From Clostridia bacterium (GTDB lineage: Bacteria > Bacillota > Clostridia > Christensenellales > Aristaeellaceae): a stretch of 32,606 nt of DNA. The notes below the pieces were generated by a model. That model did not search any database. It saw only the letters and a program-made list of their open reading frames with translations, and had not been told where the DNA came from. A program made the position numbers and the translations under genes. Positions within the stretch are counted from its first letter, which is position 1. Every line of letters begins with the position of its first letter. Below are positions 9,001-28,818 of this stretch, piece by piece. The stretch lies in contig JAFRBK010000037.1 of NCBI GenBank assembly GCA_017404985.1, forward strand, positions 1-32,606, given 5' to 3'.

Positions 9001-9158
9001 TGATCCACCCTTTCCTGCCGTTCAGCACAGCGCGCCTTTGCTCGCTGGCGGAGGAACCCGAAAAGGACCTGCCCGTTACGGACGGAACGGTCACCGTTTC
9101 ATTCCGTCCGTTTGAAATGATTACCCTGCGCCTGACCGACAACGCAAAAGGAGGCTGA
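6060..9158 (+). CDS. GH38 alpha-mannosidase
   Basis: 1032 aa, typical for bacterial GH38. GH38 enzymes remove alpha-linked mannose by a retaining, zinc-dependent mechanism. After an N-terminal beta domain (~1-250) the catalytic domain opens with ANSHLDLAWLWP (His258 and Asp260 as metal ligands). The nucleophile is Asp370 in WLPDTFGYS. The conserved QFHDILPGSSI follows at about 570-580 (His572, Asp573 metal site). The rest is the usual middle and C-terminal beta-sandwich region. No signal peptide, so cytoplasmic. AAGGAG lies just upstream, the start overlaps the previous stop by 11 bp, and the next gene begins 2 bp after its stop, so this is a tight operon. All key residues are present. Confidence 0.93.
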   Translation: MTNEITEQLGHLIDALEADLYHALGDIPVEGFLASGPLTLQEAETHERSPWPAGTAWGHPWEYAWMFGSFTVPEEARGERIVMDLNPGGESVLFVNGKVFGARRADRMPWRHQYISDQTVCRRAEGGERFSIAMEAYGGTPLPDHPSRPVFPEDGVTFTRTGPAVAGQSTFGWWNEEAYQLWLDLTVLRDVHDCLGPHDSFREALAAGFARLLDSLDPELSLPERRQAYIAARRLIAPLVNAHNGTFAASMGIVANSHLDLAWLWPMEETRRKTARTFGAVLRLLEEYPEALFLQSQCAEYELCRKHYPELFERVKAAISEGRWIADGGMWVEPDTNLAGGEALVRQFLYGRRYFREVLGVESRVAWLPDTFGYSAALPQIIKGFGMTGLTTQKIFWSYNDSEPFPHHAFLWRGLDGTVIPSFLHMFYETQVDVKTVHTRWNSRLEQDGTCDFYLPFGQGDGGGGPSRTDMEQVRRQRDLQGSPKLYWMGPEDYLKKRNNGSLPVYRGELYVPCHRGTYTTQALIKKGNRRAEHVLRTWEMLAAMAAFSGRAEYPAGLIEENWKLLLTNQFHDILPGSSITRVYEEARADIARIRDTAVHGAREALLAFCQSGEGMTVFNPSSHRITRVIRADSRFSGGAVTQDGVRFQAAAWKDEALVLACLEPMSALTMYPAEVPVHSTVTASRQGGSYILQNSCLRAEITNKGELVSMVTLHDGRERVRTASNVFHLYRDLPRRFDAWDLDSQTERREVPLNAQYETEITCQNGLFAELTITARFSASTMTQQIRLTAEEPQLEFITQMNWQERHRLLKVSFDTGIDSDNADHQIQFGFISRPAHRSRKYDADRFEVCAHGWTALRDATHGAALLNDCKYGVSANDGVISLSLLRSPTYPDAAADRGWHRFIYAYRAWDGPLETSGVTEAAEVLNDPLITVPGSSDPLRLLTCSDSCITVESVKLSEDGTGDLVIRMYESMGGSRTAVIHPFLPFSTARLCSLAEEPEKDLPVTDGTVTVSFRPFEMITLRLTDNAKGG

Positions 9159-12100: not shown

Positions 12101-12250
12101 ATCAATTCCTTCGGCACGTTCCACCTGAACGATTATTCCGTCCGCTGGTTCGGGCCGCAGGCATGGCGCAGCACCGGTATGCAATGGACACGCACATACC
12201 GGCTGGCGCCGTCCGGGCTGCTCAGCGAACCGCATCTGTTCAATTCCTGA
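9161..12250 (+). CDS. GH106-like glycoside hydrolase (alpha-L-rhamnosidase family)
   Basis: 1029 aa. The N-terminus matches the GH106/PF17132 type: PFWAWNCDLDEGLLLREIGY, then MGMGGFHMHTRSGM, then WLYDEDRWPSGFAGGYV. A (beta/alpha)8-like catalytic region (~1-450) includes a candidate acid in IFTDEPQ (~210). After it come a beta-galactosidase-trimerisation-like segment (IRIGVIHPVES, VIVPGCDTLRR) and C-terminal jelly-roll regions ending RWFGPQAWRSTGMQWTRTY. Characterised GH106 enzymes remove L-rhamnose, but many relatives are untested, so rhamnosidase is a family-level guess. No signal peptide. AAAGGAGG overlaps the end of the GH38 gene. It is the last gene of the operon, 32 bp from the converging GH38-like gene. 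Confidence 0.75.
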   Translation: MLYPRSNDPTPNPELFRNPGSEYRCTPFWAWNCDLDEGLLLREIGYMKQMGMGGFHMHTRSGMSVPYLSDAFMARIRACVEEARKEGMLAWLYDEDRWPSGFAGGYVTEKEENRQRFLLLTPKDPPAGEGRLLARYEVRLDSRGSLAAYRRLAAGETASGTVWHAVEKTTAPSPWFHFHGYADTMNPAAIRDFIRITHERYLEELGDDLGTICPAIFTDEPQMPRKINLSRSADLQDVLLDWTGDLEETYRAAYGESLLDRLPEVVWEQPEGISPVRYRYFDHTTERFVSAFCDQIGAWCREHGILMTGHMMDEQTLESQSRSVGEAMRAYRAFTLPGVDQLCDGREFTTVKQAASAAHQQGCPGVTSELYGVTNWDFDFKGHKLQGDWQAALGVTVRVPHLYWCSMHGEAKRDYPASIGHQSSWWREYPFIEDHFARVNTLMTRGKPLIRIGVIHPVESCWIAFGPDDRTGLARRELDRRFAELTRWLLQDTLDFDYICESTLPNLFRPGDAFRVGEMGYDAVIVPGCDTLRRTTLDALRAFRERGGRVIFLGSAPRYVDALPSTEAELFSRECERLPWNRVLLNESLLPLREIRIRTKDGRPAESLLSAIREDGDCRNVFVVHSEPAVHGKPDEEEEYDISLTGLWAVEQWDTLTGKISTYPAEYTEQTTELTWTCWGQDSLLLRLTPAARETIRQSGSREAELNGSYGIHMAEELAPDSGSSTERLLPPPEEIILGEDNVLVLDTAEWRTDDGPWEAPEEMLRIGILAKNRLGISTAAASGAQPWVLPPEPAAHTLSLRITFRSEIEIPSVRLALEDAEECRVLFNGAPLSGEQNGFFTDEAIRCFPAGPVRAGVNTIEITRPLAAATCTENLFLLGNFGVRVRGAETVLIPAPRTLSYGDWTVQGLPFYSGPLTYRWHLAGGERLRLRLGLFSAPCVTAELDGKRIANLSLSPSEADLGPLGEGEHILDITVYPSRINSFGTFHLNDYSVRWFGPQAWRSTGMQWTRTYRLAPSGLLSEPHLFNS

Positions 12251-12282: not shown

Positions 12283-14745
12283 CTACAGTTCCAGCACCGG
12301 CAGCCCGGCCGCCAGCGCCGCGCTGCGGCGGAACTGTTCCGCCGGATCCCCGGGCGGCTCCAGCGTGACGATATAGCGGAACTCATGCCAGCCGCCCAGG
12401 TCCGCCGCGAAATTGGTTTCCCAGTAGTTATTCATCACCCGGCTGCGGATTTCCGCCCGGTTCAGCCCGGTGCTTTGCCCGCCACACAACGTGACGGGCC
12501 CTTTTTCGCCCTCCCCGAAGGACACCAGCGGCACATCCGGGCAGGTGACCAGCAGGTCGAAATCCCTGCCGCGGCGAAGCACGCCGTTCTGCAGGCACCA
12601 GAAGGCCTGGCAGGTGCCCGGGAGCTGGTCCAGCCCGGGGCGGATCACACAGCCGGTTTTATCAATCCAGGTTTCGTCGTCCCCGCCCGCTGTAAACGGC
12701 ATCACCAGCTGAATCTCCTCCGCGTCCGGACAGCTTTTTTTCCGGATCCGCAGCCGCACGTCCAGCCGACGGATCTGCCGGTAAACCTTCAGGTCAACCT
12801 GGCACTCATCCGTTCCTTCCAGGCTGTATTCCGCCCGCAGCGTCACGGAAACGCTGCCGTTTTCCGCAACGGAGAACCGCGTCGGCCGCGCGGCGTACTC
12901 CCGGGTATTCACGGTTTCCCGGCGGCGGCCCATCTTGCGCCGCGAGGAGGTTACCGGCCCCGCGGACGGCGTAACCCGGTACAGGCAGGCAAAGGCGCCG
13001 AAGCGGGAAGCCGGATCCAGCAGTTCCCGCCCGGTTTGCCTGTCCGTGATGGAAGCGAACCCTTTCACCGGATCCGTGCGCACCGTGAAGCAGGCGGTTT
13101 CCACCATCTCCGGCAGCGCAAGCCCCTCCAGCCCCGCCTGGTCCGTGATTGCGTCCGCGCACATTCCGGGCGTATGCCCGGCCATCTCCCGGCCCGCCGG
13201 CGCATATTCCAGCCGCAGTTCCCGGCTCTCCCCGGGATTCAGGCTGAGCACAGCCTCCGCCAGGCGCCCGCGGGGCCCGGGGCCCGTCTGGGTCGGCAAA
13301 AGCAGGCCGGATTCCGCATCCCGCAGCGCCAGCGGGCGATCCTGCTGGCGGCATCCGTCCGGGTATTCCCAGCCCAGCAGCGGCACAGCTGCCGGCATGG
13401 CAACCGGGAAGGGATACGGATTGACAACCCGCGCGCGGCCCGGGCGATCCGGCCGGATGGCGCGGTTTCCGAGCCCCGCCAGGACGCCGTCCAGCAGCGC
13501 ATTTGCAGCGGTGTTCGCGTTCACGGCGAAGGCTGCCTTTTTCATGTTCATGGAACTGACCAGCGTGCTGTACGGATCGGAAACGGAAGCGGAATGCCCC
13601 CAGGTATGCTCCGCGTACATCATCAGGTTTTCCCCGGCCTGCCGCCGGAGCGCATCATCCGAATACCTCCCGCCGGGATCCAGCAGGGCGGCGAGATTCC
13701 GGCACCGCTGGGCCTCCCGGTACAGCTTCACCGCATCCGGTGTGGAGCCGACGCCGTCCGCCCACCAGTCGGTCCAGTCGCCGGCGTAAGCGGGAATCTC
13801 CGCTCCGGCGGCTTCCAGCTTCCGGAAGAAAGCATCCAGCGTCGTCATCCGCAGCACCACCTTGCCGCCGAAAAGGCGGTTCAGCCGGTTGATCCGCTCC
13901 GCCACGCGCCCGTTCGGCGGGGAATTGTCCGACAGGATGCCGCTCACAAACACAGGCACGAAATCCAGCGGCCAGCCGGATTCTTCCAGGCCGGCCAGGT
14001 ACCGCGTGATCCGCTTCTGCGCGACTTCCGTTTCCTGCCGGTCCGTGGTTTCCGCGTCGGCGGTAAAGAGCCTGCCGCTCTCAATATCCCGCAGGATATC
14101 GTCCTCCAGCATGAAGGAAGAGGTGCCCCGGGGGCACAGCCCCAGCACATGGCCCCAGTGATAATGCTCACCGCAGAAAACGAGCACGCTTTTTCCCGCC
14201 GGCCCGACCCAGCGGAAGAACGCCGGATTCCGATACAGGGGATACATCCCATGGTGGGTATGCAGGGCGCTGTAGAAATAGCGCACGCCCGCATCCGCAA
14301 GCAGGTCCGGAAGCGCGGCGGAATAGCCGTTCACATCCGCCGTCATGGCGCTGCGGATTGCCAGCCCGTTTTCCCGGGCCCAGTTTTCAGCCCGCTCCAG
14401 GTGCTCCCGGAGCACGGCTTCATCGATCAGGTCGGTCAGGTTCAGGTAAGACGCGCTCAGCCCGATGCGCCCCTCCCGGACATAACGGACCAGATCCTCC
14501 CTGTCCTTTGGGCCCGCCGCTTTCAGGAACTGTTCCACCTGCCAGTGGTTCTCGCACTGCCAGCAGAAGCCCTGCTGTTCCTCCGCCTCTCCGGCGTCAA
14601 TCCGGCGCAGAATGTCCACCGCGCCGAGCAGGAAGCCCGCGTGCTGGCGGGCCGCCAGTTCCTGCCGGACCGTATACCCGACATCCGTATGGGAATGGTG
14701 CAGCACGTCAATCTGCCACGTTCTCCGCAACTCCTTCATGCGCAT
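12283..14745 (-). CDS. Second GH38-like alpha-mannosidase
   Basis: 820 aa from the ATG at 14745, chosen because AAAGGA sits 6 bp upstream and the GH38 core begins at once (LHHSHTDVGYT, metal ligands His19 and Asp21). The open frame extends further upstream but crosses the hairpin at 14795-14824. The probable nucleophile is Asp137 in TADVNGYSAALPDLL. YAEHTWGHSAS matches the later His motif of the family. It is shorter than and only distantly like the first GH38, and lacks its N-terminal beta domain, so a different linkage specificity is likely. No signal peptide. It lies downstream of the ABC transporter genes on the same strand, separated by a strong hairpin, so it probably acts on the imported ligand and is expressed below the binding protein. 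Confidence 0.85.
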   Translation of the reverse strand: MRMKELRRTWQIDVLHHSHTDVGYTVRQELAARQHAGFLLGAVDILRRIDAGEAEEQQGFCWQCENHWQVEQFLKAAGPKDREDLVRYVREGRIGLSASYLNLTDLIDEAVLREHLERAENWARENGLAIRSAMTADVNGYSAALPDLLADAGVRYFYSALHTHHGMYPLYRNPAFFRWVGPAGKSVLVFCGEHYHWGHVLGLCPRGTSSFMLEDDILRDIESGRLFTADAETTDRQETEVAQKRITRYLAGLEESGWPLDFVPVFVSGILSDNSPPNGRVAERINRLNRLFGGKVVLRMTTLDAFFRKLEAAGAEIPAYAGDWTDWWADGVGSTPDAVKLYREAQRCRNLAALLDPGGRYSDDALRRQAGENLMMYAEHTWGHSASVSDPYSTLVSSMNMKKAAFAVNANTAANALLDGVLAGLGNRAIRPDRPGRARVVNPYPFPVAMPAAVPLLGWEYPDGCRQQDRPLALRDAESGLLLPTQTGPGPRGRLAEAVLSLNPGESRELRLEYAPAGREMAGHTPGMCADAITDQAGLEGLALPEMVETACFTVRTDPVKGFASITDRQTGRELLDPASRFGAFACLYRVTPSAGPVTSSRRKMGRRRETVNTREYAARPTRFSVAENGSVSVTLRAEYSLEGTDECQVDLKVYRQIRRLDVRLRIRKKSCPDAEEIQLVMPFTAGGDDETWIDKTGCVIRPGLDQLPGTCQAFWCLQNGVLRRGRDFDLLVTCPDVPLVSFGEGEKGPVTLCGGQSTGLNRAEIRSRVMNNYWETNFAADLGGWHEFRYIVTLEPPGDPAEQFRRSAALAAGLPVLEL

Positions 14746-14785
14746 CTTCTGTCCTTTCGCATGTTTTTGCTTTACAAGCCAATGA

Positions 14786-14824
14786 TTTGAAACAGGGGCT
14801 GCCGCGAAAACCCGCGGCAGCCCC
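14786..14824 (-). terminator. Strong hairpin, probable (partial) terminator after the binding-protein gene
   Basis: GGGGCTGCCGCG (14795-14806) pairs perfectly over 12 bp with CGCGGCAGCCCC (14813-14824) around a 6-nt loop. On the minus strand it is followed by TGTTTC, a weak T tract, 19 nt after the binding-protein stop. The GH38-like gene lies beyond it, so it may act as an attenuator or as an mRNA 3'-end stabiliser. Confidence 0.7.
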
Positions 14825-14843
14825 TTCTCAGGGTGCTCCAAAA

Positions 14844-16472
14844 TTACTGGGCTGCATACCATGCGTTTGCTTCGTCGGTCAGCGTCTGTCCGCCGGCATT
14901 CAGCCATTCCTGTACAAAGTCATCCCAGGTGTCCAGGGAACGTTCGCCGCGGATGAAGGCGGTAAACGCTTCGTCGCGGATGGTGTTCAGTTCGCCGAAC
15001 AGGTCGTTGCTCGGGAGCGTTTCCGTCACGACATCCTGGATATAGCTGTTATACTGATCCTTCTTGAACCAGTTCAGGCGGTTCGCGATGGATTTGTCAT
15101 TGTAGAAGGCCAGGTCATAGCCCAGCTTGGAGAAGGCGCGGTCGGCGCCGTACAGGCTGCGGCAGCCCCAGACGCCCACGGCGTTCAGTTCGTCGTTGCC
15201 CAGGAGGCGCTGAATCGTGCCGTCATCGTTCTTCGTATAGTGTTCCCCTTCGATGCCGGCAAAGGCGAGCATATAGAGTTCGTCATCCGTCGCGAAGGCG
15301 TTCATGATTTTGAAGATCAGGGCCAGCTTCTCATCGGACATGCTGGCGTTGTACACGGCGCTCTCGCTGACAGCCACGGGCGTGCCGACCACCCAGCCGT
15401 AATCGCCGCTGGGGCCTGCCGGCCACGGGCCGTAAACAAAGGTGGAATCCGCGCCGTTCACTTCCCAGTATTCCGTCGCGCAGCGTCCACCGGCGTCATC
15501 CGGGCCGGTGACGCCCTTCAGGCGGTAGTGGTCGATGGACGCGTTGGCGCTGGCGCCGTACAGACCGGTGACCATGCCGTGGGAAATGGCCCAGTAGCTG
15601 CCTTCCACGGATTCCTTGCCGGCCACGAATTCCTTGTCGATCAGGCCCTTCGCGTACATATCCGCGAGGATCCCGACCACGGTCTTCGCATCATCGGTCA
15701 CGTCGCCGTTCACCACTTTGCCGTCCCGAATCGTCCAGTAGGCGCTGCTTCCGGAATAACCGGTGCCCAGGCCATAGGAGCCGAACAGCGCCTTCATCGC
15801 CGTGATGGAGCAGCCATAGGTGTCATCCTGGCCGTCGCCGTCCGGGTCTTCCTTCGTGAAGCGCTCCATCAGGGCAACGAATTCATCCACAGTTTTCGGC
15901 AGGGTTTCCTCCGTGACGCCCAGCTTCTCCAGCCAGTCGCCGCGGTAGATCAGGGTTTTGTAGGGCATGGATCCGTCCGGCTTGAAGGACGGGACCACGA
16001 CCATTTTGCCGTCCCGCATGGAGGCTTTTCTCCAGGCTTCGACGTCGGCCTTCAGGTCGCCGTAGGCGGCGCCGCCCATGATGAACTCATACACATCCGG
16101 AGCATTCTCTTTGAAGAACGCCTCGTCCCAGGTCTTGATGGCGCCCTGGTCATAATAGGTGTTCAGCATGGTGGTGCTCGAGGCCAGGAAGACATCGGGC
16201 GCCGTGGCCAGGTCGTTCAGCCGGGGGTTCAGGATTTCCGTGTAGTTGGCATTTTCAATATAGACCACTTCAATGTCCACATTGATGCCGTGCTTTTCCT
16301 TGAGCATTTTCTCCACAGCGGGGGTAATGACATCCTTGTCATGGTCAACCGGGCCGAACATGTAGCCTGCCACAGAAATCTTGACAGGTTCATCATCGGC
16401 CACAGCGGTCGGCGCCAGCGCGACGAGCATCATCAGCGCAAGCAGCAGTGCGAGAATACGGGTACCTTTCAT
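14844..16472 (-). CDS. ABC sugar transporter, extracellular solute-binding protein
   Basis: 542 aa, the size of LplA/YtcQ-type oligosaccharide-binding proteins. The ATG at 16472 is preceded by AAAGGAGGT, the best ribosome binding site of the operon, fitting the high output binding proteins need. Residues 1-26 are a signal peptide (LALLLALMMLVALAPTAVA, cleavage before DDEP). There is no lipobox cysteine, unlike most Gram-positive binding proteins. The mature part shows the periplasmic-binding fold: NVDIEVVYIENANYTEILN, LATAPDVFLASSTTML, then GDWLEKLGVTEETLPKTVDEF and an acidic DPDGDGQDDTYG loop that may bind calcium. It captures the sugar and delivers it to the two permeases encoded upstream. 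Substrate unknown; the context suggests a mannose-containing oligosaccharide. Confidence 0.9.
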   Translation of the reverse strand: MKGTRILALLLALMMLVALAPTAVADDEPVKISVAGYMFGPVDHDKDVITPAVEKMLKEKHGINVDIEVVYIENANYTEILNPRLNDLATAPDVFLASSTTMLNTYYDQGAIKTWDEAFFKENAPDVYEFIMGGAAYGDLKADVEAWRKASMRDGKMVVVPSFKPDGSMPYKTLIYRGDWLEKLGVTEETLPKTVDEFVALMERFTKEDPDGDGQDDTYGCSITAMKALFGSYGLGTGYSGSSAYWTIRDGKVVNGDVTDDAKTVVGILADMYAKGLIDKEFVAGKESVEGSYWAISHGMVTGLYGASANASIDHYRLKGVTGPDDAGGRCATEYWEVNGADSTFVYGPWPAGPSGDYGWVVGTPVAVSESAVYNASMSDEKLALIFKIMNAFATDDELYMLAFAGIEGEHYTKNDDGTIQRLLGNDELNAVGVWGCRSLYGADRAFSKLGYDLAFYNDKSIANRLNWFKKDQYNSYIQDVVTETLPSNDLFGELNTIRDEAFTAFIRGERSLDTWDDFVQEWLNAGGQTLTDEANAWYAAQ

Positions 16473-16504
16473 GTTTCTACCTCCTTTTAATTTCAGAAAG
16501 GATT

Positions 16505-17386
16505 TCATCCTTTCAGAGATCCGATCATAATGCCCTTCACGAAGAACTTCTGCACAAAGGGATACGCGCACAGAATCGGGAACGTCGTGACAAAGATGCA
16601 GGCGGCCTTCAGGCCCTCCGAGGAGACGACCGACTCGATTTCCGCCGCGTTGGCCGCGGCGCTGGTGTCCAGGATTTCCTTGGAGCCGGTCAGGATGATC
16701 CGCCGCAACACGATCTGCAGCGTAAACTTGGTGTCGTCCGAGATATAGATCAGCACATCGAACCAGCTGTTCCAGTGCCCGACCACGAGCCAAAGGGCGA
16801 CCGTCGCCAGGATCGGCTTGGACAGGGGCAGCACAAACTGCAGGAAGATCCGGAAACGCCCGGCGCCGTCGATCAGACAGCTTTCCTCAATTTCCTCCGG
16901 CAGGGACTGGAAATAATTGCGGATGATCACCATATTGTAAGCGCTGATCAGCCCCGGCAGGATCATGGACGAGTATGTGTTCAGCAGCCCCAGGTCCTTA
17001 ACCAGCAGGTAATTCGGAATCAGGCCGCCGGAAAAAAACATCGTGAAAATGATGAAAAACGTCCAGAACGTACGGTGCGGGAAAAAACGCTTGCTGAGCA
17101 CATAGGCGCCCATCGCAGTGAAGAAGAGCTGCAGCACCGTGCCGATCACCGTGCGGATGAGGGTATTCTTGTATCCCATCCAGATATAGCGGTTGCCGAC
17201 CACCCGGGCGTAATTGTCCCACGTCAGCTCCTTCGGATACAACAACAGGCCGCCCTTTGTGGCGATATGGCTGGGGGACAGGCTCAGGTTCAACAGATGC
17301 CAGAAGGCGACCACGATGGTTGCGCACAGCATCGTGAGGATCAGGTAAATCAGGGCTTTGCCGAAGGTAAACCGTTTCTGTATCAC
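16505..17386 (-). CDS. ABC sugar transporter permease (YtcP/LplC type)
   Basis: 293 aa inner-membrane protein with about six hydrophobic segments. It begins with GTG (17386), 13 bp after the previous permease stop. The EAA loop that docks to the ATPase is EEIEESCLIDGAGRFRIFLQ (~residues 190-209). The KELTWDNYARVV segment after the first helix and the C-terminal PFVQKFFVKGIMIGSLKG are typical of this CUT1 subgroup. It forms the channel with the neighbouring permease. No ATPase gene occurs in the window, so a shared MsmX-like ATPase encoded elsewhere is probable, as known for related systems. Confidence 0.93.
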   Translation of the reverse strand: MIQKRFTFGKALIYLILTMLCATIVVAFWHLLNLSLSPSHIATKGGLLLYPKELTWDNYARVVGNRYIWMGYKNTLIRTVIGTVLQLFFTAMGAYVLSKRFFPHRTFWTFFIIFTMFFSGGLIPNYLLVKDLGLLNTYSSMILPGLISAYNMVIIRNYFQSLPEEIEESCLIDGAGRFRIFLQFVLPLSKPILATVALWLVVGHWNSWFDVLIYISDDTKFTLQIVLRRIILTGSKEILDTSAAANAAEIESVVSSEGLKAACIFVTTFPILCAYPFVQKFFVKGIMIGSLKG

Positions 17387-17399
17387 TTGAGGCGCCCCC

Positions 17400-18362
17400 T
17401 CACCAGATGCCTTCGCCGCTGATTTTGCGGGTAATCAGATTCGTCCCCACCACCAGCACAAAGGCAATCACATTCTTGAAGAGGCCGACCGCGGTCGCGA
17501 GCGAATACTTCATATCGCCCAGGCCATAGCGGTACACATAGGTGTCGATGATATCGCCGGTCTGGTACACGGCGCTGTTATACAGGTTGAACACCTGGTC
17601 AAAGCCGGCATCCATGATGGAGCCGACGCTCAGGATCAGCATGATCACGATCGTGCTCACCAGCGAAGGAATCGTGATATAGCGCGTGCACTGCCAGCGG
17701 GTCGCCCCGTCCACCGTCGCGGCTTCGTACAGGGTCGGGTCGATCCCGGCGATCGTCGCGAGGTACAGGATGGAGGACCAGCCGACATTCTTCCAGATAT
17801 CCGTAACGATCAGCGTCCCGCGGAAATACTTGTTGTTGCCGAGGAAATAAATGGACTCCTTCACCCCGAAAACATCCCGCAGGATGGCATTCACGGCGCC
17901 GTTGTTCGGCGAAAGCAGCTGCTGGAACATGCCGGCCAGCACGACCCAGCTCAGAAAATGGGGCAGATAGGAAATCGTCTGGACTGATTTCTTGAAGCGC
18001 GCATGGGTCACCTCATTGAGCATCAGCGCCAGAATGATCGGCGCGGGAAAACCGAACAGCAGCTTCAGCCCGCTGATCGTCAACGTATTCCGGACCGACC
18101 GGGCAAAGGTGGGGGTGTTGAAGGCCTTTGTAAAATTATCCAGCCCGACCCAGGCGCTGCCGAAGATGCCCTGGCTGATCTTGTAATTCTTGAAAGCGAT
18201 CACGATGCCGCCCATGGGGATATACTTGAAGATGAAGAAATAAACCACCACGGGGATGAACATCAGCGTCAGCGCCGGATATTTCCTGTAGCCCGCGAAT
18301 CCGTGAAGCCAGCGCCTGAAGGCGTTTTCCCGCTTCGGAACCCGCGTATCAATGACGGACAC
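17400..18362 (-). CDS. ABC sugar transporter permease (YteP/LplB type)
   Basis: 320 aa when started at the GTG at 18362, which has GGGGAGG 8 bp upstream. An in-frame ATG further upstream lacks such a site and would give an odd N-terminal extension. The N-terminus (RKYPALTLMFIPVVVYFFIF then YIPMGGIVIAFKNY) is diagnostic of the LplB/YteP group. The EAA loop is LYEAATVDGATRWQCTRYI, and the end ITRKISGEGIW is also typical. First gene of the transporter operon. Its promoter has a TACAAT -10 and an upstream element shared with the glycyl radical enzyme promoter, so expression is probably under the adjacent AraC protein. Confidence 0.93.
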   Translation of the reverse strand: MSVIDTRVPKRENAFRRWLHGFAGYRKYPALTLMFIPVVVYFFIFKYIPMGGIVIAFKNYKISQGIFGSAWVGLDNFTKAFNTPTFARSVRNTLTISGLKLLFGFPAPIILALMLNEVTHARFKKSVQTISYLPHFLSWVVLAGMFQQLLSPNNGAVNAILRDVFGVKESIYFLGNNKYFRGTLIVTDIWKNVGWSSILYLATIAGIDPTLYEAATVDGATRWQCTRYITIPSLVSTIVIMLILSVGSIMDAGFDQVFNLYNSAVYQTGDIIDTYVYRYGLGDMKYSLATAVGLFKNVIAFVLVVGTNLITRKISGEGIW

Positions 18363-18418
18363 GGCCCATTCCTCCCCTGTCGGCATATGTATTTCAGACA
18401 AGCAATCATGCTGTGAAA

Positions 18419-18424
18419 ATTGTA
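18419..18424 (-). promoter_or_regulatory. -10 box of the ABC transporter operon
   Basis: On the minus strand TACAAT lies at 18419-18424, about 57 bp before the GTG start. The -35 region is poor (TTCTCG at 18442-18447), as expected for an activator-dependent promoter. Confidence 0.5.
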
Positions 18425-18445
18425 TCAACAACTGCCATGGGCGAG

Positions 18446-18497: not shown

Positions 18498-19229
18498 TCA
18501 GGGCTTGCGAAATCCCTTCCGGTATTTCTGCGGGGCCACGCCGTAATACTTCCGGAAGGCGCGGGTGAAGGTGCTGGAATCGGTGTAGCCGCAGGCATAG
18601 CAGACCTCCTCATTCGGCAGGCCCTTGTTCAGCTGGGTCACCGCGTACTGCATCCGCTGCTGGACAATATACTGGTACGGCGTATAGCCGGTTTCCCGCC
18701 GGAAAAGGCGGATGAAATAGTTGGGATGGTAACTGAACAGCTGGCTGAGCTGATCAATGGTCAGCTCCTCGGAGATATGGCGGATGATATGCCGCTGCAC
18801 CTGGGTCAGCATCCTGGAATTCTGGATAAAGCATTCGCTGCCCTTCAGGAAAAACGAGAAGGCCTCCGCGAGCTGCTCCAGCAGTTCAATCCGTTCTTCA
18901 CGGATCGCCTCGGCCACCGTCGCGACAAAATGGGCCAGGCAGCTGTTTTCCTCCACAGGAAGCTCAATCAGGCCGCTGACGCGGTACCGGCTGAAATCCA
19001 CATGAAGATAGGTGCACGCGAAGGGTTTCGATTTATCCCGCCATACATGATACGGCACGGTGGAAGGCAGCACATACAGGAATCCCGGCTTCAGCGCCTG
19101 CCGGACGTCCGCGGACTCATAGGTCACATCCCCTTCCAGCACATAATAAATCCGTGAATACCCCGTAGGCACTTCTTCATTCAGCTCCCACTTTTCCTTC
19201 ACGACCGTGTTGCCAAATTCGATCAGCAT
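18498..19229 (-). CDS. AraC-family transcriptional regulator
   Basis: 243 aa from the ATG at 19229, which follows GGAGGAAAAGGAAAC. Residues ~1-110 look like a cupin-type ligand-binding domain (SRIYYVLEGDVTYES, KPGFLYVLPSTVPYHVW). The C-terminal ~100 residues hold two helix-turn-helix motifs: LTIDQLSQLFSYHPNYFIRLF and EEVCYACGYTDSSTFTRAFRKYYG, followed by APQKYRKGF, the family signature. It lies between the transporter operon and the glycyl radical enzyme operon, and the two promoters share an operator-like element, so it probably activates both when its sugar ligand is present. The element also lies 20 bp upstream of its own -35, so self-control is possible. Confidence 0.93.
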   Translation of the reverse strand: MLIEFGNTVVKEKWELNEEVPTGYSRIYYVLEGDVTYESADVRQALKPGFLYVLPSTVPYHVWRDKSKPFACTYLHVDFSRYRVSGLIELPVEENSCLAHFVATVAEAIREERIELLEQLAEAFSFFLKGSECFIQNSRMLTQVQRHIIRHISEELTIDQLSQLFSYHPNYFIRLFRRETGYTPYQYIVQQRMQYAVTQLNKGLPNEEVCYACGYTDSSTFTRAFRKYYGVAPQKYRKGFRKP

Positions 19230-19256
19230 GTTTCCTTTTCCTCCATCAACGCTTCC

Positions 19257-19285
19257 ATTATACTGTCCCCGCGCCGGAAAGTAAA
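19257..19285 (-). promoter_or_regulatory. Promoter of the AraC-family gene
   Basis: On the minus strand TTTACT (19280-19285), a 17-bp spacer and a perfect TATAAT (19257-19262). Transcription would start about 20 bp before the ATG. Confidence 0.55.
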
Positions 19286-19305
19286 CGCGCCCGGGCGGCA
19301 TTCAT

Positions 19306-19420: not shown

Positions 19421-21691
19421 ATGAGAGGATACCTGGCTTGGGATGATGCACATCTGGAAGACAGCCTGGATCCGGAATTCCGGTATACGCAGGCATACAA
19501 AGACTCAAGCGGGCTCAGCCCAGCAGCCCGGGAGCTGAAATGCCTGGAAATATTCCTGCCCGCGTCCGTCGCCCCGCCGCGCGAGGGAGACCTGCTGGCC
19601 GGGCGGCGCATGTTCCGCCCGCTGGGGGTCGCGCCCAGCTACTGGGACGACGACACCGACGGGCTGGACAACGTGTCCTTTTACGCGGACCTCGGGCGGC
19701 TGGAACGGGTGATGAACCGGCCCTCCCAGACACCGGAAAACCGCGAAAAAATCGCCGGGCTGATCGATTTCTGGAAGACAGAAAACGTGAACGCGAAAGT
19801 CCGCGCGAAGTTTGACGACGAGATGAAGCGCGAGATGCCGAGCGACCTCTGGGCACAGGATTCCGGCGTGATCTTCGGCCTGTACCGCCTGGTTTTCTCC
19901 CAGCTGGACTACGACAAGCTGGTGCGCCTCGGCCTGCCCGGGCTTCGGGCGGAAGTGTCCGCACGGATGGCGGACGAAACCCTCAGCGAGGACCAGCGCG
20001 ATTTCCTGCAGGCCCTCTGTTCCCTGACGGACCTGATGACGGCAATTCTCGGCCTGTATGAACAACAGTTCCGCCGGGCGCTGGAGGACGGCGCGGACCC
20101 CGCACGGATCCGCCCGGTGCTGGACAGCCTGGGCCGCCTGCAAACCGGCGCCCCCGCCTGTTTCCGGGACGCGCTGCAGCTGGTATGGGTTTATTCCGCG
20201 ATGACGGGCGGCCGGGATTTCGGGCGCATGGATGTGTACCTGGGCGACCTGTACGCGCGGGACCTGGACAGCGGCGCCCTCACGGAGGAGGCGGCCATTG
20301 AACTTCTGCTCTCCTTCTACCGGCTCATGAAGGAGACGGACAGCCGGGACGGGCGGATCATCATGGGCGGGCTCGGGCGGCGGAACCCCGAAAACGCGGA
20401 CCGCGTTTCCCTGGCGATCATGAAGGCGGGGATTCGCTTTCGCGAGCTCAAGCCCGAATTCTCCCTGCGGATGTACAAAGGCCTTTCCGAAGAAGTGATC
20501 GGGCTGGCGATGGAGATGCTGGGCGACGGAATGACCTATCCGCTGCTGTTCAACGACGAGGCTTCCATCCGCGCGGTGGAAAAAACGATGCATGTTTCCC
20601 CCCGCGAAGCGGAGCAGTACGGATTCTTCGGCTGCGGAGAATATGTCCTGGGCCACCGCAGCATCGGCACGCCGAACGACATCATCAACCTGGCCAAGGC
20701 GCTGGAGGTCACGCTGCACAGCGGCACAGACCCGGTCCGCGGCTGCCCGCACGGGCTGAACCTGGGCGCCCCCGAAAGCTTCGACACCTTTGAAAAGCTC
20801 CTGGACGCATACCGGCGCCAGGTCGAATACTTCACCGCCATCGCGGCGCGGCACCAGCGCCTCGTGTATGATACCGTCCGCGAAAACGGCGCGATGCTGC
20901 TCATGAGCCTGCTGATGGACGACTGCGTCGAGCGGGCGAAACCGCTGGTCGGCGGCGGCGTCCGCTACCTGGCCGGCACCTATGAAACCTACGGCAACAC
21001 CACCGTATCCGACAGCCTGCTGGCCATCCGGCAGCTGGTTTACGAGCAGAAGCTGCTTTCCCTCCGGGAGCTTGTGGACATTCTGGACGCCGACTTCGAA
21101 GGGCATGAGGACCTTCGCATGAAGCTGCTGCATTGCCCGAAGTTCGGCAACGACGATCCCGACGCGGACGCAATGGCGCGGGCCGTGAACACCCACGTGT
21201 TTGAAACCACCGCCCGCCAGGCGCAGGCCCAGGGGCTTTCCTCCTATCTGGTCGTGATGATCAACAACGGGGCCAACGTGGACCTGGGGCGCAACACCCT
21301 CGCCACAGCGGACGGGCGCCACGCCTACACCTACCTGTCCAACGGCAACAATCCCATGGCCGGGATGGACCACAACGGCTTGCCGGCGCTGCTGCGTTCG
21401 ATCGCTTCCACGCGGATGGACCTCACCGCCGGCACGGCGCAGAACCTGAAGCTGAGCGCGGACCTGTTCCGGAAGCATCCGGACGTGGTTCGGGACCTGA
21501 TTGACACCGCGTTCGACATGGGGATCCTCTCGCTCAACATCAGCGTGATGGACCGCGGCGAAATGGAGGACGCCATGCTCCATCCGGAACTGCACCAGAA
21601 CCTGTTCGTGCGCGTCGGCGGTTTCAGCGCACGATTCGTTACCCTGGACAAAGGCACCCAGGCGGATATGCTTTCCCGAGCCTTATACTGA
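19421..21691 (+). CDS. Glycyl radical enzyme (pyruvate formate-lyase family), specificity unknown
   Basis: 756 aa, somewhat shorter than the ~780-850 aa of known dehydratase-type GREs. CGGAGG lies 6 bp before the ATG. The thiyl-radical cysteine is Cys405 in FFGCGEYVLGHRS, with Glu407 in the GCxE position that serves as general base in the C-O-lyase GREs. The C-terminal glycyl radical loop is RVGGFSARF (731-739), the radical glycine being Gly734. These residues make it an active-looking GRE. The Cys loop is not the SCC of pyruvate formate-lyase nor the GCVEP common in diol dehydratases, so an eliminase of unassigned substrate is the better guess. The activase gene starts 3 bp after its stop, and a sugar kinase and isomerase-like protein follow in the same operon. 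It should need anaerobic conditions. A carbohydrate-derived substrate is inferred from context. Confidence 0.9.
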   Translation: MRGYLAWDDAHLEDSLDPEFRYTQAYKDSSGLSPAARELKCLEIFLPASVAPPREGDLLAGRRMFRPLGVAPSYWDDDTDGLDNVSFYADLGRLERVMNRPSQTPENREKIAGLIDFWKTENVNAKVRAKFDDEMKREMPSDLWAQDSGVIFGLYRLVFSQLDYDKLVRLGLPGLRAEVSARMADETLSEDQRDFLQALCSLTDLMTAILGLYEQQFRRALEDGADPARIRPVLDSLGRLQTGAPACFRDALQLVWVYSAMTGGRDFGRMDVYLGDLYARDLDSGALTEEAAIELLLSFYRLMKETDSRDGRIIMGGLGRRNPENADRVSLAIMKAGIRFRELKPEFSLRMYKGLSEEVIGLAMEMLGDGMTYPLLFNDEASIRAVEKTMHVSPREAEQYGFFGCGEYVLGHRSIGTPNDIINLAKALEVTLHSGTDPVRGCPHGLNLGAPESFDTFEKLLDAYRRQVEYFTAIAARHQRLVYDTVRENGAMLLMSLLMDDCVERAKPLVGGGVRYLAGTYETYGNTTVSDSLLAIRQLVYEQKLLSLRELVDILDADFEGHEDLRMKLLHCPKFGNDDPDADAMARAVNTHVFETTARQAQAQGLSSYLVVMINNGANVDLGRNTLATADGRHAYTYLSNGNNPMAGMDHNGLPALLRSIASTRMDLTAGTAQNLKLSADLFRKHPDVVRDLIDTAFDMGILSLNISVMDRGEMEDAMLHPELHQNLFVRVGGFSARFVTLDKGTQADMLSRALY

Positions 21692-21694
21692 TGT

Positions 21695-22576
21695 ATGACG
21701 GGCATAATCACCGATATACTCCCCTTCTCCGTCAACGACGGACCTGGCATCCGCACCGGAATCTTCTTCAAGGGCTGCCCGCTCAGCTGCCGGTGGTGCC
21801 ACAACCCGGAAACGCAGCGGCCCGGGCCGCAGGCGATGGTGCTTCCGTCCCGATGCACCGGCTGCGGGACATGTGCCTCCGCCTGCCCTACCGGCGCGCG
21901 CGGCGCGCACGGGGAAATGGATTCCTCCCGGTGCACCGGCTGCGGGGCGTGTGTCTCCGCCTGCCCGGCAAAGGCCTGCCGGATCAGCGGAACGGCGATG
22001 ACTCCCGGGGACGTGCTGGCCCGGATCCTGCCGGACAAGCCCTTCTTCCGCGGCCGCGGCGGCGTCACGCTCACGGGCGGCGAGCCCATGGAGCAGGCCG
22101 GCTTCGTGCTTGAACTGGCCGCGCTGCTGCGGGAAGAAGGCATCGGCGTTGCCATGGAAACCAGCGGCTGCGCGCCGGCGGAAGCCTTCCGGGCCGTGCT
22201 GCCGTACATCGGCCTTTTCCTGTACGACTGGAAGATGACGGATCCGGAACAGCACCGCTTCTGGACCGGCAGGGACAATGCCCTGATCCGGAAAAACCTG
22301 GAAATGCTGCATGACAGCGGCGCGGAGATTGTTCTGCGGTGCCTTATCGTTCCCGGTGTCAACGACACGCGGGAGCATTTCCGCGGGATTGGCGAACTGA
22401 CGCAGGACCTGCCCCGGATCCGCCGGGTGGACCTGCTGCCCTATCACGCCCTGGGCAACAACAAACGCACGCAGCTCGGCCTGCCCGCAGACGGATTTTC
22501 CGTGCCGGAGGAGGAAACCGTCCGGGGATGGCAGGAAGAGCTCCGTTCCCTCTGCCGCGTTCCGGTCTGCCGGTAA
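21695..22576 (+). CDS. Glycyl radical enzyme activating protein (radical SAM)
   Basis: 293 aa. It uses S-adenosylmethionine and a [4Fe-4S] cluster to remove a hydrogen from the glycine of the partner enzyme encoded 3 bp upstream. The radical-SAM motif is Cys28-x3-Cys32-x2-Cys35 in GCPLSCRWCHNPE. A ferredoxin-like insert has two full [4Fe-4S] motifs (Cys54/57/60/64 and Cys80/83/86/90), as in activases of the dehydratase-type GREs but not of pyruvate formate-lyase itself. TLTGGEPMEQ follows, the SAM-binding GGE motif. The tight spacing points to coupled translation. It supports a non-PFL reaction for the partner. Confidence 0.94.
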   Translation: MTGIITDILPFSVNDGPGIRTGIFFKGCPLSCRWCHNPETQRPGPQAMVLPSRCTGCGTCASACPTGARGAHGEMDSSRCTGCGACVSACPAKACRISGTAMTPGDVLARILPDKPFFRGRGGVTLTGGEPMEQAGFVLELAALLREEGIGVAMETSGCAPAEAFRAVLPYIGLFLYDWKMTDPEQHRFWTGRDNALIRKNLEMLHDSGAEIVLRCLIVPGVNDTREHFRGIGELTQDLPRIRRVDLLPYHALGNNKRTQLGLPADGFSVPEEETVRGWQEELRSLCRVPVCR

Positions 22577-22631: not shown

Positions 22632-23537
22632 ATGATTCGCCTGGGTATCGATCTTGGAGGAACCGCCATCAAATGCGGCCTGGTGGAGGATGGCACGCTG
22701 CTGCACACGGGCCAGGCGCCCACCCCGCTCAGGGAAGGCTACCGCGCCGTGCTGGAGGCCATTGTTAAGGCCGTAAAGCAGCTGCCGGAGGAGCCGGGGG
22801 CCAGCGAAGCCGGCCTGGCTGTTCCCGGGCTGATCGACCCCGGGGAAGGCCGGGTTCTTTACTCCAATAATTTCGGCTGGGAAAACAGGCCCATCGCCCG
22901 GGACCTTTCGGAGCTGCTGGGGATGCCCGTCCGGATTGCCAACGACGCACAGACCGCGGCCCTTGGGGAGGCGCTTTACGGAGCGGGCCGGGGCTGCCGC
23001 CGGATCGCAGTGATCACCATCGGAACAGGCGTCGGCGGCGGGTTTGTGAAGGACGGCCGGCTGGAGAAGGATGTGTCCGGCGGCATGGCCTATATCTTCG
23101 GGCATATGCTTTACCAGGCCGGCGGGCTGCGCTGCAACTGCGGGAGGGCCGGCTGCTACGAACAGTACGCCTCGGCAGGGGCGGTTGAAAGGATCTACCA
23201 CGAGCTGTCCGGGCAGGCGAAACCGGTCCGGGAGATCTTCGCATCCGTCCGGGAAGACCGCCACGCGGAGGAAACGCTCCAGCTGTTTTCCGGGGCGCTC
23301 GGCGCGCTGTGCGCGGATATCGCCAACGCCTTCCGGCCGGAAATCATCGCCATCGGCGGAGGAGTCAGCCGGTCGGCCGATCTCTTCCTGCCCGCCGTCA
23401 ACCGGATCCTGGCCGAAGAGGTATACGGCAGCCGCTTTGCCCCGGTGAAGGCTGTGCCGGCCCTGCTCGGGAACCAGGCCGGCGTGATCGGCGCCGCAAG
23501 CCTCAATACAAAAGCGCACAAAGGAGGCCGGCCATGA
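22632..23537 (+). CDS. ROK-family sugar kinase
   Basis: 301 aa. ROK kinases phosphorylate hexoses or N-acetylhexosamines, usually at O6, with ATP. The N-terminal phosphate loop is LGIDLGGTAIKCGLV, the probable catalytic base is Asp105 in IANDAQTAALGEALYG, and ITIGTGVGGGFV is the second nucleotide loop. The ROK zinc site is CNCGRAGCYEQYAS (Cys168, 170, 175). No DNA-binding domain, so it is a kinase and not a ROK repressor. GGGAGG lies 10 bp before the ATG. Its stop overlaps the start of the next gene (ATGA), so the two are probably made together. Mannose or another hexose freed by the local glycosidases is the natural substrate; an anhydro- or deoxy-sugar feeding the GRE is the alternative. 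Confidence 0.92.
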   Translation: MIRLGIDLGGTAIKCGLVEDGTLLHTGQAPTPLREGYRAVLEAIVKAVKQLPEEPGASEAGLAVPGLIDPGEGRVLYSNNFGWENRPIARDLSELLGMPVRIANDAQTAALGEALYGAGRGCRRIAVITIGTGVGGGFVKDGRLEKDVSGGMAYIFGHMLYQAGGLRCNCGRAGCYEQYASAGAVERIYHELSGQAKPVREIFASVREDRHAEETLQLFSGALGALCADIANAFRPEIIAIGGGVSRSADLFLPAVNRILAEEVYGSRFAPVKAVPALLGNQAGVIGAASLNTKAHKGGRP

Positions 23538-25243
23538 AAAGCGCCTTTGATCTGCACCCGGAAAAAAGGATTCCGGGGTATCCGGCGTATTGCGGATGGA
23601 AGGAAATCCTGTCCCGGCTGGCGCCGCCGGAGGGAAGCCGCTATGTGATCACGGCGGAGTTCTATCCCCAGGTGAACCGGGAGGAAATCGTCCGCGCGCT
23701 TTCGAAGCTGGGCGGCACCCTGTTCGACGCCGAGGAATGCGCGATCCCGGACGACGCGTATCTGAAGAGGATTTCCCCCTTCCTGACAGACGACCGCGTA
23801 TTCGGCGTCATGAATACCCTGCGCCTGGAGGATGTGTTTCTCCGTGAAAAAATCGCGGAACTTCAGGAACAGATCCGGAACACCGACGGCATTGTCATCG
23901 TCTACGGAACCGGCGCGTCGCTGGTCACCCGCGGGGATTCCCTGCTGTATTTCGATATGCCCCGCTGGGAGATTCAGAAACGCTTCCGCCGGGGAATGAC
24001 GAACTGGAAAAGCCACAATCCTCAGGAAGACAGGCTTCGCAAATTCAAGCAGGGATATTTTGTCGAATGGCGAATGGCCGACCGGAGAAAAAAAGAGCTG
24101 CTGCCCCGGATCGACTGGTATCTGGACACATGCGTCGAAGATGCTCCCCGGATGATCAGCGGAGAAGCACTGCGGGCCGGCCTGGCCGTTTTTTCACGGG
24201 AGCCGTTCCGCCTGGTGCCGTATTACGCCCCGGAAGTCTGGGGCGGCCAGTGGCTGAAAGAAACCTGCGGCCTTGATCCGGAAGCGGAAAACTACGCGTG
24301 GGCTTTTGACGGCGTGCCGGAGGAAAACAGCATCTGTATACGGTTCGGCGACGTGAGGGTTGAACTTCCCGCGATCAATGTCGTCCTGTTCGCCGCGCGA
24401 AAGCTCCTGGGCGACAGGGTCCAGGCACGCTTTGGGGATGAATTCCCGATCCGTTTTGACTTTCTGGACACCATGGGCGGACAGAACCTGTCGTTGCAGG
24501 TGCATCCGACGACGGAGTATATCCAGGACCGCTTCGGCATGCACTACACGCAGGACGAGAGCTATTACATCATGGCGGCCTCCGACGATTCCGTGGTATA
24601 TCTCGGGCTGAAGGAAGGCATCCGCCCGGAGGAAATGGTCCGGGACCTGGAGCGGGCACAGGAGACCGGCGAACCCTTCCCGGCCGAACAATACGTCAAC
24701 GCCTTCCCTGTCCGGAAGCACGACCACTGCCTGATTCCGGCCGGCACCGTTCACTGTTCCGGAAAAAACACCGTCGTTCTGGAGATCAGCGCGACGCCTT
24801 ATATCTTCACCTTCAAGCTATGGGACTGGAACAGGCTCGGGCTGGACGGCAGGCCCCGCCCGGTCCATATCGGCCACGGCAAGCACACCATTGACTGGAA
24901 CAGGACCACCGGATGGGTGCGCGAAAACCTTCTGAACCGCGTATCCATAATCGAGAAGAACGATGCCGGCACGGTCGAAAGGACGGGCCTGCACCCCCGG
25001 GAATTCATCGAAACCAGGCGATACACCCTGTCCGGGGAAATCACCATTGAAGCGGACGACAGCGTCAGCATGTGCAATATTGTCGAGGGGGAGGGCGCAG
25101 TGATCACTTCGCCGGAGGATTTGTTTTCTCCGTTTACGGTTCACTACGCGGAGACGTTTATCATTCCCGGAAGCATCCAGCGGTTTTCCGTCCGGCCGCT
25201 GAACCGGCGCTGCGTCCTGCTGCGCGCCACGGTCAGGAATTAG
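23534..25243 (+). CDS. Class I mannose-6-phosphate isomerase-like protein with N-terminal extra domain
   Basis: 569 aa from the ATG at 23534, with AGGAGG upstream and a 4-bp overlap with the ROK stop. The C-terminal ~340 residues are a type I phosphomannose isomerase-like cupin: RLVPYYAPEVWGGQWLKE (~226), QNLSLQVHP with Gln322 and His324, DESYY with Glu342, and IPAGTVHCSG with His407, which correspond to the zinc ligands of the family. Residues 1-~215 are an added domain of unknown role. It includes VYGTGASL (125-129 GTGAS, a possible phosphate loop) and FDMPRWEIQKRFRRGM. The predicted job is to interconvert mannose-6-P and fructose-6-P, or a related sugar phosphate. Together with the ROK kinase it makes a two-step entry to glycolysis. 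Last gene of the operon. Confidence 0.85.
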   Translation: MKSAFDLHPEKRIPGYPAYCGWKEILSRLAPPEGSRYVITAEFYPQVNREEIVRALSKLGGTLFDAEECAIPDDAYLKRISPFLTDDRVFGVMNTLRLEDVFLREKIAELQEQIRNTDGIVIVYGTGASLVTRGDSLLYFDMPRWEIQKRFRRGMTNWKSHNPQEDRLRKFKQGYFVEWRMADRRKKELLPRIDWYLDTCVEDAPRMISGEALRAGLAVFSREPFRLVPYYAPEVWGGQWLKETCGLDPEAENYAWAFDGVPEENSICIRFGDVRVELPAINVVLFAARKLLGDRVQARFGDEFPIRFDFLDTMGGQNLSLQVHPTTEYIQDRFGMHYTQDESYYIMAASDDSVVYLGLKEGIRPEEMVRDLERAQETGEPFPAEQYVNAFPVRKHDHCLIPAGTVHCSGKNTVVLEISATPYIFTFKLWDWNRLGLDGRPRPVHIGHGKHTIDWNRTTGWVRENLLNRVSIIEKNDAGTVERTGLHPREFIETRRYTLSGEITIEADDSVSMCNIVEGEGAVITSPEDLFSPFTVHYAETFIIPGSIQRFSVRPLNRRCVLLRATVRN

Positions 25244-28776: not shown

Positions 28777-28818
28777 TTTCTTTGAAAAAAAACAGGACAG
28801 CCGGAGGTGGAGAGATCC

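Follow-up and report, generated by a model that had tools for sequence, protein, structure and literature searches.

We have analyzed a glycyl radical enzyme (GRE) encoded within a stretch of 32,606 nucleotides from a Clostridia bacterium (assembly GCA_017404985.1, contig JAFRBK010000037.1), called the window in what follows. On the evidence of sequence comparison the window GRE and its relatives are a distinct clade, apart from CutC, HypD, pyruvate formate-lyase (PFL), PflD and YbiW. The feature is real: it is a well-separated group of GREs, and the chemistry proposed for it is of a class that is already known. As far as GREs of known substrate could be placed by tree or by scores, the clade matches none of them. 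We infer, with a confidence somewhat better than even, that its members are eliminases that cleave a C-O bond in a sugar or sugar-derived cyclic polyol arising from glycoside catabolism.

The reading frame of the window GRE (19421-21691, forward strand) is open across all 756 amino acids, and a Shine-Dalgarno-like GGAGGT precedes its ATG. The Pfam domains PF02901 (PFL-like) and PF01228 (Gly_radical) are matched far over their gathering scores. Cys405 (codon 20633-20635) and Glu407 (codon 20639-20641) lie in the Cys loop QYGFFGCGEYVLGH, and Gly734 (codon 21620-21622) in the glycyl loop FVRVGGFSARF, just where the preliminary description of this DNA had placed them. The protein thus has the two hallmarks of the GRE superfamily, a Gly in a C-terminal RVxG[FY] motif and a Cys in the Cys loop, and its Cys, Glu and Gly are invariant across 20/20 aligned rows of divergent clade members. 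The Cys loop reads GCGEY, without the adjacent Cys-Cys pair of PFL. GREs are oxygen-sensitive radical enzymes. The activase gene begins 3 bases past the GRE stop; its product has the radical-SAM motif CX3CX2C at residue 28 and CxxCxxCxxxC at residues 54 and 80, which bears out the earlier report of two extra [4Fe-4S] motifs.

The best NCBIfam match of the window GRE is to a general subfamily, TIGR01774, at 283.6 bits against a cut-off of 678.2. None of the equivalog models (CutC, HypD, sulfopropanediol dehydratase, hydroxyphenylacetate decarboxylase and indoleacetate decarboxylase) reached its cut-off, the best being 238.4 bits against 1000, and this was also true of four further clade members. 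In a tree of 47 rows, a branch with SH-aLRT support of 100 separates the 15 clade rows from all the others. A tree of 42 rows, which included other orders and left out the row of locus L143 (a near relative of that of L142; loci of relatives are denoted by L numbers), also brought its 19 clade rows together with support of 100, on a stem of 1.43 changes per column, and PflD, YbiW, HypD, CutC and PFL lie across a branch with support of 99. Forcing PflD, YbiW and a Klebsiella copy of YbiW into the clade costs 39.4 log-likelihood units, with p-AU = 0.00105, a value that is somewhat flattering because the constrained group was chosen after the first tree was seen. Glycerol dehydratase, hydroxyphenylacetate decarboxylase, indoleacetate decarboxylase, isethionate lyase and sulfopropanediol dehydratase are represented by scores, and were not knowingly included in a tree. 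Clustering with a GRE of known substrate had been named beforehand as the result that would speak against the proposal; among the GREs placed, neither the trees nor the equivalog cut-offs reveal it. In particular, the clade does not appear to be one of the known sugar-phosphate GREs. In the open-licence literature, a scope that leaves most subscription journals outside, we recognized no paper on the clade, nor one linking a GRE with anhydroglucitol.

We built a profile (A1) from 23 clade sequences and ran it against solved structures. The top scores were those of glycerol dehydratase (395 bits), diol dehydratase (383 bits), HypD and YbiW (369 bits each) and CutC (367 bits), followed by 9rco, described as a 'glycyl radical protein' without further name (366 bits). 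Lower scores were given by 8iof, named as a benzylsuccinate synthase alpha subunit (336 bits), PflD (330 bits), isethionate lyase (325 bits), two entries for hydroxyphenylacetate decarboxylase (324 and 241 bits), MasD (247 bits), TutD (238 bits) and PFL (126 bits). The ranking leans toward the eliminases, though without a clean divide and naming no substrate. The clade probably sits in the eliminase (dehydratase/lyase) part of the GRE superfamily.

The columns around the presumed pocket were compared between the 20 clade rows and 61 other GREs. The Glu two residues after the Cys is present in all 20 clade rows and in 47 of the 61 others. The preliminary description had considered the Cys loop unusual, and in part it is: Gly406 (16/20) and Tyr408 (14/20) occur in 0/61 others each. 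The Cys-x-Glu within it is the ordinary eliminase motif. Arg156 is found in 19 of 20 clade rows, the remaining one being a gap, and in none of the 61; Asn615 is found in 20/20 against 2/61, and Asn616 in 19/20 against 9/61. In the column where 38 of the other GREs have His and 7 have Arg, the clade rows show Gly (15), Phe (3), Glu (1) and a gap (1). The loop bearing the SNGHS motif of YbiW (SNxxS in PflD and YbiW; His281-Ser282 in glycerol dehydratase) is deleted from all 20 clade rows. The deletion by itself is not unique to the clade, since among 44 of the 61 other rows the loop of L078 is equally short, and L016 and L061 come close to it. At the position of Asn419, aligned by the profile with Asp447 of glycerol dehydratase, 17/20 clade rows have Asn and 3/20 Ser. 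We take His164, His281-Ser282 and Asp447 of glycerol dehydratase to be its glycerol-binding residues. On the alignments, these substitutions may mark a pocket shaped for another substrate. An equivalence of Arg156 with His164 of glycerol dehydratase or Arg176 of PFL was considered and dropped; only the pairwise alignment with YbiW faces Arg156 to the His, while in the MAFFT and profile alignments it lies three residues before the His column, in a small insertion, and Phe159 occupies that column.

The features of the window are collected in Table 1.

Table 1. Genes of the window around the GRE, in order of position
Feature	Positions	Strand	Evidence
(alpha/alpha)6 glycosidase, MGH1/GH63-like	4832..6070	+	PF22422 57.2 bits
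GH38 alpha-mannosidase	6060..9158	+	PF01074 245.5 bits; PDB alpha-mannosidases 3e-101 or better
GH106-like protein (alpha-L-rhamnosidase superfamily by homology)	9161..12250	+	via L139 homologue
Divergent GH38-like enzyme	12283..14907	-	PF01074 62.5 bits; conserved in relatives
Extracellular solute-binding protein, oligosaccharide type	14844..16793	-	L083 orthologue matches; no Pfam match
ABC sugar permease 2	16505..17386	-	PF00528 37.5 bits
ABC sugar permease 1 (start uncertain)	17400..18431	-	PF00528 43.1 bits
AraC-family regulator, divergent from GRE	18498..19301	-	PF12833 80 bits
Glycyl radical enzyme, 756 aa	19421..21691	+	PF02901 321.5 bits; PF01228 62.4 bits
Radical-SAM glycyl-radical activase, two additional 4Fe-4S motifs	21695..22576	+	TIGR02494 285.5 bits, cut-off 174.35
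ROK-family sugar kinase	22632..23537	+	PF00480 220.8 bits; TIGR00744 175.9 bits, below cut-off 260.35
~570-aa protein, mannose-6-phosphate-isomerase-like (cupin) part	23534..25243	+	TIGR00218 32.5 bits, PF21621 19.9 bits, both below cut-off

The glycosidases and transporter of the window agree with its earlier description as a glycan-use locus, as does the recurrence of sugar genes beside distant relatives (see below). The true start of the solute-binding protein is probably at ~16475, judged from the length of its relatives; the orthologue in L083 matches PDB 5gub (2.9e-11) and AlgQ1 (1.6e-7). The GH106-like protein has no direct Pfam match, and its homologue in L139 (24% identity, 270 bits) carries PF17132 at 122 bits. 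No PDB sequence was matched by the GH106-like, the GH63-like or the divergent GH38 protein. Downstream of the activase, a gap of 55 bases leads to the ROK kinase, the end of which is overlapped by 4 bases by the reading frame of the mannose-6-phosphate isomerase (MPI)-like protein, starting at an ATG after GGAGG. To the right of this operon lie a PNP_UDP_1 family gene (26369-27187) and a PTP-like phytase family gene (28807-30042). A scan of the window for promoters and terminators gave sites no more numerous than in shuffles.

The preliminary description had also remarked on the absence of the usual GRE partners, and rightly so. In the source genome, at 85% completeness, bacterial microcompartment (BMC) shell genes gave 0 matches. 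Families of aldehyde or alcohol dehydrogenases did not appear among 24 open reading frames (ORFs) of the window scanned with Pfam, the rest of the genome not having been searched. The same 24 ORFs contain no families of the phosphotransferase system (PTS), for which the genome and the other loci were not searched, and none for polyol, glycerate, rhamnose-pathway or propanediol use.

Gene neighbours were compared in a set of close loci comprising the window and 15 others (L033-L040, L042-L046, L083 and L088; L041 was excluded as too short). An AraC regulator and an oligosaccharide-type ABC permease (permease 1) lie within ~4 kb of the GRE in 16/16, and 15/16 also have one or more of the glycosidase types seen in the window, the exception being L037, a 10-kb contig. 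In L083, whose GRE is 66% identical, the order is rearranged, and the genes for the AraC regulator, permeases, binding protein, GRE, activase, GH38 and divergent GH38 are on one strand; that the set is kept together despite this rearrangement argues for a shared function. The kinase and isomerase had been seen as an operon with the GRE. The close spacing upholds this for the window, but the pair stands next to the GRE in only 5 of the 16 close loci, and ROK proteins elsewhere are just 31-34% identical to that of the window, with a much weaker ROK match in L089. Since 11 of the 16 loci have no such pair beside the GRE, it is weakened as a guide to the substrate, and we dropped the two proteins as main substrate markers.

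The more distant relatives have other sugar genes as neighbours. The clearest case is subclade II, comprising L085, L086, L087, L119 and L082, the last being the locus of the source genome's second GRE. All five loci have NanE directly next to the GRE (in L087 it scores 239.3 bits, the cut-off being 189), and four of the five have a ROK kinase; of all the neighbours, this constant NanE is the least likely to be due to chance. L086 and L087 also have ManA, Gfo/Idh and xylose-isomerase-like barrel proteins, and L085 a gene of the glucosamine-6-phosphate isomerase family on the opposite strand. In L082 (8841-12892, contig C28) the GRE is flanked by NanE and the ROK kinase to one side, and to the other by the activase, a HAD-family protein and a GH94-like protein. 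This second GRE of the source genome is ~35% identical to the window GRE.

Outside subclade II, DeoC (232 bits, cut-off 117.3) and an FGGY kinase are encoded directly upstream of the GRE in L120. The neighbours are an ABC sugar transporter and GH42 in L121, Gfo/Idh in both L122 and L141, and esterases in L048, where an ABC transporter lies ~7 kb off. In L139, a GH106 homologous to that of the window and a ribokinase lie ~5 kb upstream of the GRE, with other genes between. In Persicobacter (L092:15143-18124), a PhyH-family dioxygenase (by annotation) is located 12 bases upstream of the GRE; the order is PhyH-family gene, GRE, activase, malectin-domain protein and GH20. Sulfatases, DeoC and ribokinase are encoded at a greater distance.

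A sugar-type C-O eliminase accounts for the catalytic residues, the lean of the profile toward eliminases, the altered polar positions and the sugar genes that keep recurring as partners. In the mechanism that we propose, the activase would form a glycyl radical at Gly734, which would be passed on to Cys405. The resulting thiyl radical would abstract hydrogen from the substrate at a carbinol carbon, Glu407 would take the hydroxyl proton, and the neighbouring C-O bond (to a hydroxyl, ether or glycosidic oxygen) would be expelled. On regaining hydrogen, the product radical would become a deoxy-keto or deoxy-aldo sugar, to be processed by ordinary sugar enzymes, i.e., an aldolase such as DeoC, epimerases or isomerases, and kinases. 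For the window, the substrate would derive from glycosides that the ABC transporter brings in and that the GH38, GH63-like and GH106-like enzymes cleave. The DeoC adjoining the GRE of L120, and that in the wider Persicobacter locus, fit a deoxy-sugar phosphate product without proving one.

Several observations weigh against this reading. The weakest eliminases in the profile search, isethionate lyase and PflD, score barely above the better hydroxyphenylacetate decarboxylase entry, and 8iof scores higher than either. No activase match is present near two clade GREs, those at L120:9403-11649 (19.9 kb) and L084:9219-11480 (~19 kb), whose activation may depend on an activase gene at some other place. 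Sugar genes are not evident around the GREs of L047 and L084, and L140, where the contig ends, shows just an AraC regulator. L142 and L143 encode a metallo-beta-lactamase-fold protein that is not sugar-specific, the latter together with a xylose-isomerase-like barrel. Genomes of this kind are rich in sugar genes, and the neighbour counts are raw, without a background rate. Lastly, the clade may hold several substrates, because the neighbours differ so much among subclades.

Four other explanations have to be weighed. The GRE could have as its substrate the aglycone (such as glycerate, erythritol, inositol or a different polyol) of a mannoside taken up by the cell, leaving the mannose to the kinase and isomerase. 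The GH38 and MGH1-like enzymes of the window would suit this, the transporter and regulator are the constant partners, and the ROK and MPI-like genes would cover mannose in 5 of the 16 close loci. It leaves unexplained the NanE and DeoC beside the GREs of other subclades, and the scan of 24 window ORFs disclosed no polyol or glycerate pathway families; we regard it as rather unlikely. Glycerol or 1,2-propanediol dehydration leading to fermentation end products, e.g., from rhamnose freed by the GH106-like enzyme, has in its favor the two best profile matches. Yet His164 is replaced, the His281-Ser282 loop is deleted and Asp447 is aligned with Asn419, and neither BMC genes in the source genome nor rhamnose or propanediol families among the scanned ORFs were found, making this quite improbable. 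Least probable of all, and to our minds very much so, is a decarboxylase, C-C lyase or PFL-like enzyme. The superfamily is shared, and one hydroxyphenylacetate decarboxylase scores about the same as the weakest eliminases, with 8iof a little above. Against these stand the absence of a Cys-Cys pair from the Cys loop, the position of the other decarboxylase, TutD, MasD and PFL at the bottom of the profile scores, the branching of PFL elsewhere in the tree, and the retention of the Glu two residues past the Cys. That Glu does not alone exclude decarboxylases.

The remaining alternative arises from known enzymes. According to a review (PMC12441222), YbiW and PflD of E. coli cleave 1,5-anhydroglucitol-6-phosphate and 1,5-anhydromannitol-6-phosphate to 1-deoxyfructose-6-phosphate after phosphorylation by the PTS. 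Because these enzymes already act on anhydrohexitol phosphates, GRE activity on sugar phosphates is no longer unheard of, and the preliminary suggestion that such activity on sugars or their phosphates would be new or little described is not supported. The window GRE could be a functional equivalent of PflD and YbiW that was reached separately, with the ROK kinase replacing the PTS. YbiW is its best single-sequence match in the PDB (209 bits), and the kinase and mannosidases would suit a manno-configured substrate. The Gfo/Idh oxidoreductase of L086 and L087 could be read in the same way; a known 1,5-anhydrofructose reductase belongs to the Gfo/Idh fold family. Moreover, the GRE/PhyH-family pairing of Persicobacter resembles the arrangement in E. 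coli, where ybiU is one gene from ybiW. All this is countered by the rejection of a common clade in the constrained tree, with its post hoc grouping, by the loss of the SNxxS loop from every clade row, and by the kinase adjoining the GRE in so few of the close loci. FsaA and FsaB queries found no homologue in 28 loci and 5 more, and the one TAL_FSA protein of the source genome is ~26% identical to FsaA/FsaB and has Glu at the position of FsaA Gln59, which we take to mark a transaldolase. We consider such an equivalence unlikely.

Returning to the C-O eliminase acting on sugars, a bolder version of it can be put forward tentatively, and we think it more doubtful than not. The clade might be a new family of GREs that remove oxygen from sugars or sugar phosphates, giving deoxy-keto sugars cleavable by DeoC-type aldolases; this would provide an anaerobic radical route into the breakdown of sugars, separate from that through anhydrohexitols. 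Examples of substrates could be a hexosamine-type 6-phosphate for the NanE-linked subclade and a mannose-derived unit for that of the window, and the Persicobacter dioxygenase might carry out the same step with oxygen. In E. coli K-12 (L090:1-4607, ybiU-ybiV-ybiW), ybiU carries DUF1479; YbiU is presumably of the dioxygenase type. By analogy, and as a lead only, the dioxygenase/GRE pair of Persicobacter and ybiU/ybiW of E. coli suggest that one inert C-O bond can be dealt with in an aerobic and in an anaerobic way. If ordinary sugars are deoxygenated in this way, radical chemistry would have a wider part in the breakdown of carbohydrates than is known so far. Another review (PMC11574389) states that many abundant gut GREs have no assigned function. 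For the present clade the substrate can be searched for directly, given its clear sequence signature, the constant transporter and regulator partners in the close loci, and the informative NanE, DeoC and dioxygenase in others.

Scanning genome contigs with a pattern yielded 31 loci, of which 14 are at 75-88% identity and a further two at 38-40%. Seven of the 14 are from goat jejunum or the rumen of sheep or water buffalo, and one is from Christensenella sp. UBA2853. Among 61 relatives, the window type (at least 66% identity) is found in 5 of 37 genomes of the same genus, source genome included, and is thus an accessory trait. Clade members were found in 6 of 396 genomes sampled from the order (matches of at least 446 bits). 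From the family, 19 of 250 genomes passed the cut-off; one of these (G860:C8, 420 bits) falls outside the clade by tree and was not counted, nor was G898:C245 (414 bits), which passed and was not placed in the tree. A profile search of the class gave 6 of 391 genomes including the source, the five further ones scoring 423-600 bits with the window protein. In a phylum sample of 398 genomes (E 1e-80) only the source genome had the clade, a negative that reflects the choice of genomes, because the class-wide search found those five. Assemblies found in two collections were counted once. On plasmids, 138 records had some GRE match, and the 60 listed include one clade member, on pPP4 of Persicobacter psychrovividus (37.6%); a second Persicobacter record is among the 138, beyond the 60 listed.

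Some other GREs were encountered in these searches. A Flammeovirga kamogawensis plasmid (L093:7467-9608) encodes a distant GRE with the Cys loop GCNWM, without the usual Glu, near GH130, GH47 and sulfatase genes. A contig of Candidatus Allocopromorpha excrementigallinarum (L051:3-12295) has four GRE ORFs of 816-859 aa within ~12 kb. A separate group of ~706-742 aa in the same order (L008, L069, L071, L072, L073 and L117) lies outside the clade, the N-terminal part of the L069 GRE being shortened in the alignment.

The clade GREs can be compared with four known systems. With PFL they share the superfamily and the radical-storage Gly, but the Cys-Cys pair is missing and the window GRE reaches 70.6 bits against the PFL cut-off of 994.2. 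CutC and HypD are eliminase GREs with high scores against the clade profile; they lie on separate branches, and the window GRE scores 203.5 bits against the CutC cut-off of 1050 and 234.1 against the 1100 of HypD. The B12-independent glycerol/1,2-diol dehydratases (PDB 1r8w/1r9d and 5i2a) are alike in their GRE domains, GC-x-E Cys loop and glycyl loop, whereas in the clade the equivalents of His164, His281-Ser282 and Asp447 are changed or lost, the source genome gave no microcompartment genes, and sugar genes are neighbours. From YbiW and PflD the clade is set apart by its position in the tree, by the deleted loop and by the FSA aldolase, which was not found beside clade GREs in the 28 + 5 loci; what it appears to share with them is the pairing of GRE with activase, and an eliminase tied to sugar-type substrates.

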